From the NCBI RefSeq assembly GCF_003268005.1, contig NZ_CP014213.1, forward strand, positions 2,625,501 to 2,689,500: a stretch of 64,000 bases of DNA, in the 5' to 3' direction. The DNA comes from Methanosphaera sp. BMS. Its GTDB lineage: Archaea > Methanobacteriota > Methanobacteria > Methanobacteriales > Methanobacteriaceae. The notes below the pieces were generated by a model that saw only the letters and a program-made list of their open reading frames with translations, had not been told where the DNA came from and searched no databases. Of this stretch, positions 8,311-48,016 are shown one piece after another. Positions within the stretch are counted from its first letter, which is position 1, and the number at the start of each line of letters is the position of its first letter. The position numbers and the translations under genes are program-made.

Positions 8311-8625
8311 GTTTTTTCTTGTTTTTTGCTATGTTGGTGTTTTTAGTTGGGGGGGTGATTGGTTGATTTTTACTTCGTTATATATGTCTATAGCAAAGTA
8401 AATTAAAAGCTATCATAAAAAGCATATCTGGCCCTGAAATCCAACACATTATTCCATACTCCACATCCAACAGATCATTATCATGTGTCATATGATTACT
8501 AATACTAACATGGGAATATTATCACATTAATATAAACAATATCGTAACATTAATGTTTGCCTCTTATATTCTTTTTAATTGTCTGGTAATATTATATGTT
8601 GATAGATTCTGAAAATGAAATTGTT
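8311..8625 (+). repeat. Long diverged direct repeat, left copy
   Basis: Similar over about 300 bp to 13237-13540 in the same orientation. The best-conserved core includes AGCATATCTGGCCCTGA and CCAACAGATCATTATCA, interrupted by small indels. The homology appears to resume at 8961 with the 155-bp repeat unit. Function unknown; the two copies bracket about 5 kb of mobile and decayed genes. Confidence 0.7.
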
Positions 8626-9155
8626 GCATGCTCTTATTTATCAATACTTTTCAATAAAGGCTCTTTTCATCTACAATGTATTATTATTCTATGAAAATTA
8701 ATGGTTAAATGATTTTTGGCTTTATTTTATATTTGTAGGATTTGTTGTATAACTATTCTTTTCTTTGGAAAATGATACAATAAATGTTTCTTTTCATTTT
8801 ATCATTATATTAAAATTACTAACTATAATTAATGGGGAGATTTGAATAAAATATCAAATCATCAGGGCAACTGATAATTAAATTAAATGCTTGGTTCTAG
8901 TTTAATATTTTTGGATGGATAATCTACATTTGGTATGTTAAGTTATGTGTTTGCATTGGTTGTGGGAACATTTTGGTTTTGTGTACCTATGTATTATGTG
9001 TTAATCAGGTGATGGGTAACTTAATGGGGGTGGAATTGGAGATTAATAAGTCGATTGGACTAGTGTATGTACAACTGAAGATTGTGGGTACAACTGAAGA
9101 TTGTGGGTACAATTGATGTATTTAAATTACCTGATTTAATTGTAGAATGTATTAA
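8626..9155. other. Intergenic region with one copy of the 155-bp repeat unit
   Basis: 8626-8960 shows nothing recognisable. From 8961 (GTGGGAACATTTTGGTTTTG) to about 9120 there is a single diverged copy of the unit that forms the tandem array at 13.6-14.4 kb, ending in two copies of a 20-nt unit with the core GTACAACTGAAGATTGTGG. Confidence 0.5.
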
Positions 9156-9413
9156 CAAATAGATAAAAACTTTGATAAACTCACGCTCCATATTGAAAAT
9201 AAAGATATTCCAAGTACTAACAATTTATCAGAGTTATTTTTCATAGTTACGTGTCTTGCAAGGTTAAAGAAACGTTATCGTACGGATAAAGGAGTAAATC
9301 GTAAAATGAAAATAAATCGTTCACGTTGGAATTATATAATTTGCTTAGGAAAAAAAGATTCAATCTTACTCATATTTGTATTACAACCAACTGATAAATT
9401 ATTAAATATTTAA
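9156..9413 (+). pseudogene. Transposase remnant, C-terminal
   Basis: The frame has no start (stop codon just upstream) and ends at 9411-9413. It contains IENKDIPSTNNLSELFF followed by a basic stretch (LKKRYRTDKGVNRKMKINR). The P-x-TNN-x-x-E pattern and basic tail resemble the end of DDE transposases, where the last catalytic Glu lies just after TNN. The stop lies 6 bp before a 22-bp repeat (9420-9441) that behaves like an IS end. About 85 codons remain of a protein normally several times longer. The IS family is not certain; ISL3-like is a guess. Confidence 0.6.
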
Positions 9414-9631
9414 TTAGGGGGACTGGATTTCGGACACTCCCAATAAGGACAAGTTAAATCAGATTTAACATACAAAACACCATTAATTGATGGATTAAGC
9501 AACTTTAAAAAAGGTATTAAATCAGGAGTGACTGTTTCTGGCAATTCTAAATATGATTTATCATCTTCACCGAAAAATTTAACAACTTGAAAATTAATAC
9601 ATATATCTGTAGGGCGTTTTTTCGTGTACAT
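9410..9631 (-). pseudogene. Transposase remnant, N-terminal zinc-binding part
   Basis: A minus-strand frame of 73 codons starts MYTKKRPTDICINFQVVKFF and runs to VKSDLTCPY, where a zinc-finger Cys-Pro-x-Cys pair is expected. From there the frame reads straight into the 22-bp IS-end repeat (residues WECPKSSPP come from it) and stops. This is the start of a transposase cut off at another element's terminus. Its own upstream end would be the second copy of the repeat at 9915-9936. The natural protein is much longer, so this is a fragment. Homology is judged by pattern only. Confidence 0.55.
9420..9441 (+). repeat. 22-bp IS-end repeat, copy 1
   Basis: GGACTGGATTTCGGACACTC plus CC; the identical 22 bp occur at 9915-9936 in the same orientation. 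It sits directly after the plus-strand transposase remnant, so it fits as the right terminus of that element. Confidence 0.75.
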
Positions 9632-9914
9632 AATAATATATAACTCCCTACACTTATTTAAACTTATTTTATAATCCTATTTTTAAAAATAACAACATAC
9701 AAATAACCACAAATATAAACAACCACATATATACCAAATAAACTAAAAAAAAGTATCCATTAAACTCTATTAATTAAATAAAATATTCATACAATTTAAA
9801 TTAACCTATATACATGAATTATTAGATAGTTTAATGAAAAATTATTATTAAATTAATGATTAATAAAAAAAAGTTTTATTTTTTATCTATATTTGAAAAG
9901 AAGTTTGTTTTGTT
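9632..9914. other. Leader region of the truncated IS
   Basis: Very A+T-rich DNA between the minus-strand transposase start and the second 22-bp repeat. It is presumably the IS promoter region; no other gene seen. Confidence 0.4.
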
Positions 9915-9936
9915 GGACTGGATTTCGGACACTCCC
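9915..9936 (+). repeat. 22-bp IS-end repeat, copy 2
   Basis: Identical to 9420-9441 and directly repeated. Read on the minus strand it begins GGGAGTGTCCG and lies upstream of the truncated minus-strand transposase, as the left terminus of that element should. Confidence 0.75.
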
Positions 9937-10238: not shown

Positions 10239-11576
10239 ATGTCAGATGATTGTGTTTTATTAACTCAAAGTATTCTTATTCGTGGTCTTACCATGAAACA
10301 ATATACTGTTTTGGTGGATATTTCCTTGAAACTTAACTCTTTGAGAAATTGTGCGGTGGAAAAGACGCCATTTGTTAAATCTACTGATAAAAAGCATTTT
10401 AAGAAAATAAATTTTAAATCAATAATTAGCAAGGTCAAAGAGGAATTTAAGATGGAATATTCTTTTCTTCAGGCTCATTTAGCTAATGCTGCTATAAAAA
10501 AGCATGTTGAATCATTTAATGGCTATGTTGAGTTGAAAAATAAAAAAATTGATGGTGAATATGATCGAAAGGTTAATCCGCCTAAAAAACATGAGAATTA
10601 TCGATTACATAATATTATAATTCCGAAAGAATCTATTACTTCTTCTAAAAAGAAGCTAAGGGAGGGTTTTATAGAATTGCCATTAAGTAGGGAGTATAAG
10701 AAAGTGTTGGAATCAAAGAATTGTAGACCTAGAATAAAAATTCCTGGAAATATACGAGATAAAAAGATTATTCAAGTGGAAATTATTCCTATAAATAATG
10801 GAAAGATGTTTAAGGCAAATTTCACTTATGAAGCTGAAAAAGAGCCGTTGGATTTGGATAAGGATAAATTTATGGGTATTGATCCTGGTGTAAATAATTT
10901 TGCAACAATTGTTACAACCGAAGGGCCTCCATGTATTGTGGACGGGAGAAAATTAAAAAATCAAATATACTTCAAATGTAAGAAAACAGCTCACTACAGA
11001 TCAATTCTTGATAAACAAGGACGTAAAACATCCAATAGAATCCGAAAAATAAACCAAAAATTCAAAAACATACAAGACAACTTCCTCAACCAAACAGTAA
11101 ACTTCATCATAGAAAGATGTAAAGAACAAGATGTAGGTACAATTGTGCTTGGATACAACAATAATTTCCAGCACAAGACCAATATGGGAAAAAAACAAAA
11201 CCAAATATTTTCACACATAGCATTCAAACAATTCAAACAAAAACTAGAAACACGATGCCAAATACACGAAATAGACTTTATAATACAGGAAGAATCATAC
11301 ACAAGCCAAAGTAGCTTCCTAGATGAAGATATACTACCAGAATACCAAGAAAAAAAAGACGCTGAAAATAAGGGGGATAAAAAGAAGGAAGATAAAGTTA
11401 AATATGAATTTAAGGGCAATAGAGTCCAACGTGGATTATACGAAACACAAAATGGAAAAATTATTAACGCAGATGTAAACGCTGCAGCCAATATTATAAG
11501 AAAATGTAAGCATAGGTTCAATTTTGAGCTATTGTGTAAGTGGGTCCAGACTACTCCAAGTAAAATCAAATTATAA
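10239..11576 (+). CDS. tnpB: TnpB-type RNA-guided nuclease (IS200/IS605 OrfB)
   Basis: 445 residues. The RuvC-like catalytic pieces are in order: MGIDPGVNNFATIV near 212 (first Asp), QEESYTSQSSFLD near 352 (Glu), and INADVNAAANII near 415 (last Asp). TnpB proteins cut DNA guided by an RNA made from the element's right end and support transposon retention. Between the second and third motifs the usual four-Cys zinc finger is missing and replaced by a Lys/Glu-rich linker (about 365-390), as in the OrfB subgroup with SFLDED and RGLY motifs. No tnpA lies nearby, so the element depends on TnpA from elsewhere or is stranded. Start: ATG with GGGGAGGTGA 13 bp before it. Codon use changes sharply inside the gene (see findings). 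The guide RNA would overlap the 3' end and continue past 11576. Confidence 0.85.
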   Translation: MSDDCVLLTQSILIRGLTMKQYTVLVDISLKLNSLRNCAVEKTPFVKSTDKKHFKKINFKSIISKVKEEFKMEYSFLQAHLANAAIKKHVESFNGYVELKNKKIDGEYDRKVNPPKKHENYRLHNIIIPKESITSSKKKLREGFIELPLSREYKKVLESKNCRPRIKIPGNIRDKKIIQVEIIPINNGKMFKANFTYEAEKEPLDLDKDKFMGIDPGVNNFATIVTTEGPPCIVDGRKLKNQIYFKCKKTAHYRSILDKQGRKTSNRIRKINQKFKNIQDNFLNQTVNFIIERCKEQDVGTIVLGYNNNFQHKTNMGKKQNQIFSHIAFKQFKQKLETRCQIHEIDFIIQEESYTSQSSFLDEDILPEYQEKKDAENKGDKKKEDKVKYEFKGNRVQRGLYETQNGKIINADVNAAANIIRKCKHRFNFELLCKWVQTTPSKIKL

Positions 11577-12009: not shown

Positions 12010-12315
12010 TTGCTTAATCGACTTGAATTAGCAAATGATTTTGCAAAGAAAATAAAATCTGATGATATTAAATTAATAATGTTATATGGTTCTGTTGCTC
12101 GTGGAGAAGATAATTCAGAGTCTGATATTGATATTTTAATTGTTTCAGATAATGCAGATGATTTAAGATATAAGGTTAATGATTTAGTTGTTGATGTGAG
12201 TCTTGATTGTGGTGAGATTATTTCTCCTCATTTGATGACTGAAAAACATTTTAATAAGACTAAGGATTTAAGGTTTTTATCAAATGTTCTTAAGGAGGGT
12301 GTTATTCTAGGATGA
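12010..12315 (+). CDS. Minimal nucleotidyltransferase (MNT-type), probable antitoxin
   Basis: 101 residues with the polymerase-beta-like signature YGSVARGEDNSESDIDILI (about 25-43): GSxxRG followed by the SDID metal ligands, and a third acidic position in VVDVSLD (about 60-66). This matches stand-alone MNT nucleotidyltransferases, which in MNT/HEPN toxin-antitoxin pairs adenylylate and silence the HEPN partner. The start is TTG at 12010 with GGGGT six bases upstream; no better start exists. The next gene begins 4 bp after the stop and encodes the HEPN partner, so the two form one operon. The length is normal for the family. Activity is inferred from intact motifs. Confidence 0.82.
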   Translation: MLNRLELANDFAKKIKSDDIKLIMLYGSVARGEDNSESDIDILIVSDNADDLRYKVNDLVVDVSLDCGEIISPHLMTEKHFNKTKDLRFLSNVLKEGVILG

Positions 12316-12319
12316 TGTT

Positions 12320-12673
12320 TTGGAAGCTCTTAATGTGGGTAGAGAAAATTTAACTTCTAGTAAATTGTTATTTGAAAAAGATCAATATAGGGATTCTATT
12401 ACCATGTCTTATTTTGCTATGCATTCATCAGCAATGGCGTTATTTCATGATTATGATGGCTTTATTAAATCACATGATGGTGTTTTACGATTATTATCTA
12501 AATGTGTTAAAAATGGAAAATTCAGTAGAAAATCTTATGGTTATCTTTATGATGCTAGGGGTTTACGAAATAAGGCTAGTTATGATTTTTCGGCTGTTTT
12601 TTCAAGAGAACTGGCTGAAGAATTAATTTCTGAGGCTGAAGAATTTATTGAAGAAGTCGAAAGTAGGGTTTAG
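12320..12673 (+). CDS. HEPN-domain protein (UPF0332/COG1895 type), probable partner toxin
   Basis: 117 residues, all-helical. Family patterns seen: SYFAMHSSAMALF (about 29-41; family S-x-YYAMFHAA), KSHDGVLRLL (about 50-59) and RGLRNKASYDF (about 80-90). HEPN proteins paired with MNT nucleotidyltransferases act as RNases or RNA-binding toxins. The classical R-x4-6-H RNase motif of the HepT type is not evident, so this is the COG1895 branch, whose activity is less certain. Start: TTG at 12320 with AGGATGAT 8 bases before it. The upstream ATGs at 12312 and 12315 are in other frames. It is co-transcribed with the upstream nucleotidyltransferase gene and followed by T-rich sequence. Confidence 0.78.
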   Translation: MEALNVGRENLTSSKLLFEKDQYRDSITMSYFAMHSSAMALFHDYDGFIKSHDGVLRLLSKCVKNGKFSRKSYGYLYDARGLRNKASYDFSAVFSRELAEELISEAEEFIEEVESRV

Positions 12674-13236: not shown

Positions 13237-13540
13237 GTTTTTTCTTGTTTTTTACCATGTTGGTGTTTTTAGTTGGGGGGTGATTGTTTGAGTTTTACTT
13301 CGTTATATGTATGTATAGCAAAATAAAATATAAAAGTCATCAAAAAAAGCATATCTGGCCCTGAGTCCAACACATTATTCCATAATCCCCATCCAACAGA
13401 TCATTATCAAGTTTTATATGATTAATAATGACTAACATGTGGATATTATTCCATTAATAAAAAAATAATATTGTTACATTAATTTATATTCTTTTTATTG
13501 TCTGGTTAATTATGTTTTATATTTTGAAAAATGGAATTGG
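13237..13540 (+). repeat. Long diverged direct repeat, right copy
   Basis: Counterpart of 8311-8625, sharing AGCATATCTGGCCCTGA, a CCAACACATTATTCCATA stretch and CCAACAGATCATTATCA in the same order and spacing. It directly precedes the tandem array, as the left copy precedes its single repeat unit. Confidence 0.7.
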
Positions 13541-13578
13541 TGTATAATTAGTATGTCATTTCATGGTTTACATTAATT

Positions 13579-14460
13579 GTGGGAACGTTTTGGTTTTGTG
13601 TACATATGTATTGTATGTTAATAGGGTTTGTGTGTTAATTGAAGAGTAGGTGACTTAAATATTAATAAATTGATGTTTTGTGGGAATAATTGTGTATTGG
13701 GGTACAAGATTTAATTAAATACTACTTTTTGTGGGTACGTTTTGGTTTTGTGTACATATGTGTTTATTTGTTTATCGTGTTTGTTGGTAACTTTAAAATG
13801 AGTGATTTGAATATTCATTATTTGATTGAATTGTTTGGAGGGTACAATTATGTATTGGGGGTACAATATTTGATTGGATGCTGTTTTTTGTGGGTACGTT
13901 TTAGTTTTGTGGGTTCAAAGTAAGGTGTGTATGTTTATTTTTGTGGGTACGTTTTGGAATTGTGTACCCTGTATTGTATGTTAATCAGGTTGGTGTGTAA
14001 CTTGAAGAATAGGTGACTTGAATATTAATAAATTGATGTTTTATTGTGAGAACAATTGTGTATTGTGGGTACAAAATTTAATAGGATGCTGTTTTTTGTG
14101 GGTACGTTTTGGAATTGTGTGCCTATGTATTGTATGTTAGTCAGGTTGGTGTGTAACTTGAAGAATAGGTGACTTGAATATTAATAAATTGATGTTTTAT
14201 TGTGAGAACAATTGTGTATTGTGGGTACAAAATTTAATAGGATGCTGTTTTTTGTGGGTACGTTTTGGAATTGTGTACCCTGTATTGTATGTTAATCAGG
14301 TTGGTTTGTAACTTGAAGAATAGGTGACTTAAATATTAATAAATTGATGATTTATTGTAGGTACAATTGTGTATTGGAGGTACAAAATTTAAGGGGATAC
14401 TGTTTTTTGTGGGAACATTTTGGTTTTGTGGGTTCAAAAGATGGGTATGTATATTTTTTG
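13579..14460 (+). repeat. Tandem array of about 155-bp units
   Basis: Units begin with GTGGGTACGTTTTGG or close variants at 13579, 13731, 13890 (a short partial unit), 13943, 14098, 14254 and 14409. The three full units from 13943 to 14408 are nearly identical with periods of 155, 156 and 155 bp; the outer ones are diverged. Each holds GGGTAC...GTACCC-type inverted elements and the shared block GAAGAATAGGTGACTT. No coding frame is conserved through the units on either strand. It is too long-period for CRISPR. Function unknown. Confidence 0.85.
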
Positions 14461-14701
14461 TGGGAACAATGCTGATTGTGTGTACAATATATTAAAATGT
14501 GTTCATGTAAACAATTACCTGCTTGTATATGTGTCAAAGATTCAATTGGGCTCAGATGATACGGAAGTTACAATGGATTTCACTCATAATATATGCTAAC
14601 TTCACACACTAAAGGATAGTTAAAATACGTATCCAGGAACTTAAAAGAACAAGCAAATATTTTTTTTAAAAATAAAAAATAAGGATTAGGTGGTTAGGTA
14701 G
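14461..14701. other. Intergenic after the tandem array
   Basis: No gene seen. A poly-A tract at about 14660-14685, read as T-rich on the minus strand, follows the stop of the inositol phosphate synthase gene and is a plausible terminator for it. Confidence 0.35.
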
Positions 14702-46702: not shown

Positions 46703-46746
46703 CATATCCTTTCTCAAATATAACTATTTTTTTTTCAATTATAGAT

Positions 46747-47891
46747 GGTGTGTAACAATTATTATAATCCGCCCTATTTTTCTATAATTTAATTGATTAT
46801 TTTTTTCTATAAACGTCTTATTATTAACTATATTATATATAATTTTAGAATTAAATTTTAATTAATTTTTTAAGTATTAATTATAGGTATATTTTATATT
46901 AGATTGTATATGAATATTACATATAAAATATATTTTATTGGTTGATTTTTTGGTTTTAAAGGACGATAATATTGATCAGACATTTTTATTATCTTTGGAT
47001 ATATGTACAATCATTCCTGATAATCATGTATGTTTTTTATTAGAAAGTTGGTAGATTGTATAGCTTTTAGTTATATTGGCTGTGAATATGGGAATACTCA
47101 TGGTCAAAAGGCTTATTCTGCAGCTTTAATGATAGAGTTATTGTTTTAAGTATGATTTATTCTATACATAGCAGTCGTAAATTGGAAGCATCCTTCGTGA
47201 GAATGTTATTTTTATGTACATGGCTAGTTTTGAAACTCCAGTATTCACTACTATTGGGGATTTTAAACGTGAACATCAAGATTTGATAGGAAGAGTATTT
47301 TTTGAAAAGGTAAATTATGGACATAATCGTTATTTAATTGATTTTAACAGAATTAATGTGGATAGCAGTAAAACAAGAGTATATACAAATAAATATAATA
47401 GTTTAACAAGTGAAGACATTGCTAAATTACTTCATATTGTTGAACAAGGATTCATTACAGATGAAGAAGAAAAAATCCTGGATAACTGCAACAAAAAAAC
47501 GTTAATGATGATGGCTTGAAAAAGAAACAAATCAAAAAAGACTTAAGAGAAAGTAAAAACCTAAAAATCAAAGAAGAAAGAACAACTAACAATAATAAAA
47601 ACCGATAATAATCAAATGTAGAACCAAGATTCGCATACAACAAGTGCACACTAATAATAGACGATATCACCTAAAGGACAAAAAAGTGCAAAAACAGAAC
47701 AATTACTCCAGACAACTAAATACATGATAAAAATACAGAATATAGAACAAAACCTACTAAAAGAAAACATAATACCCATAGAATGATAAAAACTAAAAAT
47801 ACAAAAAAATTAAATAATATAAATACATCAAGGTTTACTTGGACCAATGTGACAATCACAATTAACTTTCAAAATGTAATTGTCGCACACC
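46747..47891 (+). mobile_element. Decayed IS element (IS1182-like) with terminal inverted repeats
   Basis: GGTGTGTAACAATTA at 46747-46761 and its inverted partner at 47877-47891 (GGTGTGCGACAATTA on the minus strand; 13 of 15 identical) enclose a broken transposase gene read on the plus strand. About 1.15 kb remains, shorter than intact elements of this type, so an internal part is lost. It lies just behind the ATP synthase terminator without breaking any gene. A second, similar inverted segment (TGTGACAATCACAATT at 47849) lies just inside the right end. Confidence 0.7.
46964..47519 (+). pseudogene. Transposase pseudogene (DUF772/IS1182-type N-terminal part)
   Basis: Joining frames gives a transposase start. 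DNIDQTFLLSLDICTIIPDN comes first, then after a shift LVDCIAFSYIGCEYGNTHG, then SMIYSIHSSRKLEASFVRM, and finally the open frame 47214-47519 with FMYMASFETPVFTTIGDFKR. The last frame ends in a charged segment (SLTSEDIAKLLHIVEQG). DQxFLLP, IxSSRKLE and TIxDFR are the recognisable boxes of IS1182-type transposases. At least three frame changes and missing catalytic regions make it nonfunctional. The 101-codon frame at 47214 is therefore a fragment and not an independent gene. Confidence 0.75.
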
Positions 47892-48016
47892 CTCTTTTTT
47901 TATTTTCAAATCTTTTTTTTTACTAGATGTGTCCTGTTTTTTTTGAATTTAATAAATAAATTTAATATATTTAAACTTACTAATTTTAATAATATAAGAT
48001 AATTATATTTCAGGTT
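47520..48016. other. Remnant 3' part of the IS and upstream region of the ATP-grasp gene
   Basis: To about 47810 the DNA is A-rich with charged-residue codons, as in decayed transposase sequence. The IS right end is at 47891. A T-rich run follows, then 47940-48010 is a promoter-like A+T-rich region before the GTG start. No intact gene seen. Confidence 0.45.

Follow-up and report, generated by a model that had tools for sequence, protein, structure and literature searches.

Dispersed arrays of a paired 12-bp box, predicted to bind a protein, in a Methanosphaera genome, most of them joined to the decayed 3′ end of an IS1182-family element

The 64,000-nucleotide stretch that we analyzed, called the window below, comprises bases 2,625,501 to 2,689,500 of the complete, single-contig genome (2.868 Mb) of a gut methane-producing archaeon; the closest matches to it are Methanosphaera assemblies. 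Its source, Methanosphaera sp. BMS, is the closest known relative of ISO3-F5 (PMC11008217). A noncoding tandem array in the window has on its right a myo-inositol-1-phosphate synthase gene, with the 3′ end facing the array, and on its left both a dead-looking stretch with fragments of genes for adhesin-like proteins (ALPs) and a nucleotidyltransferase/HEPN gene pair. The pair (12010 to 12673, the nucleotidyltransferase being MNT-like) is likely a module of the toxin-antitoxin type, and a similar pair adjoins an IS1182 copy elsewhere in our data (L178, 3078 to 3741). Farther left is a gene for a TnpB-like protein (OrfB_IS605/Cas12f1-like; 10239 to 11576), upstream of which a 33-nt sequence containing TGGACTGGATTTCGGACACTCCC or a near variant occurs twice in direct orientation (9409 to 9441 and 9904 to 9936).

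Tandem Repeats Finder (TRF) divided the array into a segment at 13577 to 13911 (period 159, 78% matches) and a segment at 13938 to 14430 (period 155, 93% matches, score 851). Together with a repeat search, this gave units of 152 to 159 bp, of which units 3, 4, and 5 are 90 to 97% identical among themselves, and units 1 and 2 are 75 to 83% identical to the remaining units. A sequence-only reading of the same DNA had described an array with a 155-bp period, three nearly identical units, diverged outer units, and no conserved reading frame, and this description holds; the longest open reading frame (ORF) overlapping the array encodes 77 aa. The same reading had placed the array at 13579 to 14460. 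An array is indeed there, but the feature extends beyond 14460, with the last pair of boxes (described below) ending at about 14487 and a conserved tail running to about 14680. The single diverged unit that had been noticed near 8961 is real and is a true relative of the array. It stands behind a block, at 8325 to 8620, that is duplicated immediately before the array. The features are listed in Table 1.

Table 1. Features of the window related to the array (positions are those of the window)
Feature	Positions	Strand	Evidence and remarks
Left block, common to window 8325–8620 and the copies at 316, 517, and 1701 kb	13250..13566	+	Borders adhesin-like-protein gene fragments
Tandem array: five 152- to 159-bp units plus two partial units	13577..14487	+	23 boxes of the TTGTGGGWACAA type on one strand, 19 of them strong; TRF, repeats, box scan
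Final box pair, with the first half of the tail that is conserved in nine dispersed copies	14440..14565	+	Alignments; no match to IS
Remaining half of the tail, homologous to IS1182-family transposase genes at their 3′ end	14565..14680	+	Truncated in the window, terminal repeat lost
AT-rich left region, found as well ahead of the first box of the 527-, 755-, 765-, and 1701-kb copies	8685..8960	+	
Single diverged unit ending in three boxes with 19-bp spacing (GTACAACTGAAGATTGTGG ×2.5)	8961..9112	+	TRF, searches, box scan
Decayed, internally deleted IS1182-family copy without boxes	46744..47893	+	Terminal repeats GATGGTGTGTAACAATT and AATTGTCGCACACCCTC; comparison for the tail

What is essential to the array is not the 155-bp unit but the 12-bp box TTGTGGGWACAA. 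A weight matrix refined on the eleven loci described below gave this box, which has quasi-palindromic arms, TTGT..ACAA. In the window array 19 boxes score >13, versus 0.15 expected in first-order Markov sequence. Over the eleven loci 94 boxes are on the array strand versus 2 on the other strand, and across 261 kb of this genome the arrays account for 73 of the 79 strong boxes. The boxes form direct pairs with an intrapair spacing of 17 to 20 bp, mostly 19 bp, which is about two helical turns. The distance from one pair to the next is 26 or 33 bp, rising to 103 to 107 bp where the long spacer of the unit intervenes. Inverted GGGTAC/GTACCC elements, which the sequence-only reading had attributed to every unit, are present in some units only; what is conserved is the direct TTGTGGGWACAA pairs. 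A CRISPR array was ruled out, as the spacers are repeated and the spacings are irregular.

Searches of the genome found eleven arrays, at about 296, 316, 517, 527, 755, 765, 921, 1701, 2013, 2634, and 2639 kb. The queries were the array and the flanks on both of its sides, and more diverged arrays may exist. The longest parallels to the window array are the copies at 517 and 316 kb. Copy number differs among the loci, from one to five units, and some of the dispersed copies are truncated or decayed. Seven of the eleven (genome positions 296 to 921 kb) fall in a part of the chromosome that makes up 22% of it and is roughly opposite cdc6, a pattern seen post hoc and to which neighboring pairs of arrays contribute. 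Those genes beside the arrays that were tested against Pfam are metabolic, membrane, adhesin-like, or unknown, and none is a rep gene.

Nine of the eleven arrays have a common right-hand tail, the decayed 3′ end of a transposase gene of the IS1182 family. The match to IS1182 is confined to the second half of the tail; the first half, which carries a box pair, is unmatched. A sequence-only model built from the tails and searched against the same genome also picked up IS1182-family transposase genes at their 3′ ends; searched again, it matched intact insertion sequence (IS) copies here and in a second Methanosphaera genome (G013) with E values of 5e-8 to 2e-6. By blastn, the tail of one copy matched the IS1182 3′ end with E = 1.5e-28, and the 921-kb copy is 79% identical to the IS over 159 bp. 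The transposase of an intact relative scores 294 bits against the NCBIfam model NF033551 (IS1182; cutoff, 270). The right end of the 316-kb copy, TTGTTGCACACTCTC, is an exact terminal repeat, identical to that of the IS in G013, and the right terminal repeat is recognizable in the copies at 316, 517, 765, 921, and 1701 kb. The 2013-kb copy has a transposase remnant (a motif around GAACCAAGATTCGCA) before its boxes and a transposase 3′ end after them; an intact transposase gene is present in none of the array copies. Weak blastn matches of the AT-rich left flanks to the IS were rejected as noise, given that reversed or unrelated segments reached E = 1e-9.

All nine tailed copies adjoin the 3′ end of a convergent gene, and in most of them the terminal repeat is roughly 0 to 90 bp from the stop codon of that gene. 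Under random orientation nine of nine would occur with a probability of 0.002, a value to be read in light of the pattern having been noticed after the fact. At 2774 and 2779 kb, two long copies of IS1182 are similarly placed beside gene ends. The placement of the tailed copies is best explained by IS1182-type insertion at gene ends. The left terminal repeat is missing or decayed save for a single candidate with two mismatches in the 1701-kb copy, so that movement borne by IS1182 is probable rather than certain. At the inositol-phosphate synthase gene the relatives carry other genes, which leaves no empty site to compare. In a separate IS1182 copy (L179, genome positions 1972498 to 1974628), about 1.6 kb of other DNA interrupts the transposase gene, so that residues 425 to 519 and 516 to 578 are encoded far apart; this looks like an insertion into the IS.

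Within the tail alignment, the two boxes have a mean pairwise identity of 93% versus 67% for the other columns (P = 1e-6); with G/C columns alone, the values are 91% and 54%. All columns of the tail should nevertheless share an equal divergence time. The difference points either to selection acting on the boxes or to gene conversion among them.

Among 139 genomes of the family, with one genome per species compared, the box-pair pattern occurred only in this genome (13 pairs), in G013 (2), and in G018 (3), the last two being Methanosphaera genomes in fragmented assemblies whose contigs could be misbinned. There were none in the 136 other genomes, and the control pattern gave two hits in all. 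The exact core TTGTGGGWACA occurs 28 times here versus 5 times for its reversed control, and in G018 and G013 it is found in clusters. The boxes on three of the contigs retrieved numbered twelve (L242), six good ones (L241), and three (L249). Pairs with 19-bp spacing are kept in the G018 and G013 arrays, and their spacers are unrelated. The unit and the box-bearing part of the tail were in none of 40 to 60 relatives in a nucleotide search; the matches that did appear were adhesin-gene fragments or chance, such as a 25-bp match inside a trpE-like gene. The sequence-only reading had taken absence from all relatives, together with the lack of a transcript or bound protein, as a mark of neutral expansion. 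Arrays of the box are present in two other Methanosphaera genomes, although the unit sequence itself is found only here. Searches of plasmid and phage collections gave no match to the arrays; boxes in a viral contig (L240) lie inside a phage gene for a VPTKPSK-type repeat protein and are a codon coincidence. We found no description of such arrays in the open-access literature.

One of the G018 arrays is preceded by a histone gene; the encoded protein has 92% identity to the histone encoded before the 755-kb copy in this genome. The first box pair follows the stop codon of the orthologous histone genes at similar distances, 381 and 404 bp, in poorly conserved DNA, and the local alignment score of the two loci is 140 versus a maximum of 118 in 200 shuffles. 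No such array stands at the other histone-gene loci that we fetched. In neither genome does the histone-locus array have an IS1182 tail, and the G018 arrays are likewise without one. The sharing of a tail-less array at an orthologous locus makes it probable that the box array predates the dispersed copies and does not need the tail. Most boxes of the histone-locus copy in this genome have decayed, so the boxes are not indispensable at that locus here.

We favor reading the array as clustered sites of a predicted, sequence-specific DNA-binding protein, spread by an IS1182 derivative (probability, about 0.55), because the boxes are paired in a fixed register, are conserved over their surroundings, and occur in three genomes. 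Both the binding and its cooperativity are inferred from these patterns. The predicted protein would recognize the 12-bp box, and the 19-bp spacing of the direct pairs would allow two units of it to sit next to each other on the DNA; an array consists of several such pairs. In this species an array would have acquired the 3′ end of an IS1182-family element, and the composite, with no intact transposase, would have spread to at least nine places beside gene 3′ ends. The shared IS end and the placement suggest that the IS1182 transposase probably acted in trans. In the window, recent tandem duplication would then have multiplied the units. Binding by a protein had been among the options of the sequence-only reading and is the one that fits best. 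Secondary replication origins with Orc1/Cdc6 boxes are a very improbable account, which we rate the least probable of all: direct boxes do adjoin an AT-rich region, but the arrays are at many places away from cdc6, and the cdc6 locus near 2.027 Mb has a different box, TTACACTTGAAA or TTACACTTGC, presumably resembling the mini-ORBs of Methanothermobacter. Arrays of TTACACTTGAAA and TTACACTTGC near cdc6 (L176, 6282 to 6590; genome position about 2.0283 Mb) are likely the chromosomal origin.

The strongest competitor, possible although clearly less probable than the favored reading, is that the boxes were sites for a transposase or for the replication protein of a mobile element; the arrays would then be fossils of a nonautonomous element, and the conservation of the boxes would date from its mobility. 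The dispersal, the IS1182 tails, the placement at gene 3′ ends, the truncated and decayed copies, and the small number of genomes all agree with this, and 19-bp pairs beside an AT-rich stretch recall iteron origins. Against it, boxes are absent from the IS1182 copies checked, the tail is missing from the G018 arrays and from the histone-locus array here, no rep gene was seen beside the arrays, and there is no plasmid or phage match. The arrays might instead be a neutral satellite to which no protein binds: a decayed element with units that multiply through slippage or unequal exchange. Recent tandem expansion, the variation from one to five units between loci, and the decay of some copies would all follow, but boxes far better conserved than adjoining sequence, and a 19-bp spacing kept in other genomes despite unrelated spacers, make this unlikely. 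The satellite-like selfish repeat suggested by the sequence-only reading is partly borne out, by the dispersal, the IS1182 3′ end, and the terminal repeat in several copies. That reading had also offered a transcribed repeat RNA, and with it one may consider a structured untranslated region. The motif is strand asymmetric and noncoding, and some GGGTAC/GTACCC pairs lie inside units, but RNAalifold gave no compensatory changes, folding energies were mostly near those of shuffled sequences with z-scores scattered around 0 on both strands, and there was no Rfam match, so an RNA is very improbable.

The arrays share features with several known systems. As in miniature inverted-repeat (MITE) and deletion derivatives of IS1182, there are several dispersed copies with a decayed transposase 3′ end, a right terminal repeat in several of them, and intact IS1182 relatives in the same genome; unlike those derivatives, the copies here carry a long run of unrelated paired boxes, are about 1 kb or longer, and have no convincing left terminal repeat. 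Plasmid iteron arrays also consist of direct repeats on one strand, about 19 bp apart, adjoining AT-rich DNA, but the present arrays are chromosomal and at many loci, with no rep gene among the neighbors, a box of 12 bp, and pairs 26 to 107 bp apart. Clustered direct boxes with fixed spacing are likewise found in centromere-like arrays (plasmid parC/tubC, archaeal SegAB sites), whereas here there are eleven dispersed arrays, beside which we saw no partition genes. Like REP/BIME and REPIN sequences, the arrays are intergenic, lie beside gene 3′ ends, and would have been spread by a transposase in trans; unlike them, they are far longer, are few in number, and lack a palindromic hairpin.

If a protein binds the boxes, transposition would have rewired a methanogen genome by scattering a multisite array, including beside a histone gene. 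The box would then offer a defined DNA bait with which to capture a DNA-binding protein in a group where few regulators are known, and loci could be tagged by means of the arrays. A more specific and doubtful proposal is that the boxes are sites of a chromosome-organizing or segregation protein, or a nucleoid anchor, of some Methanosphaera, tied to a specific histone locus and multiplied by an IS1182 derivative. In G018, the box array that follows the histone gene is itself followed, on the minus strand of contig C66 (L241, 5270 to 5840), by a second, looser cluster of TGTATGTACA and TGTACGTATA motifs, which resemble the second box of the tail pair (TTGTATGTACA).
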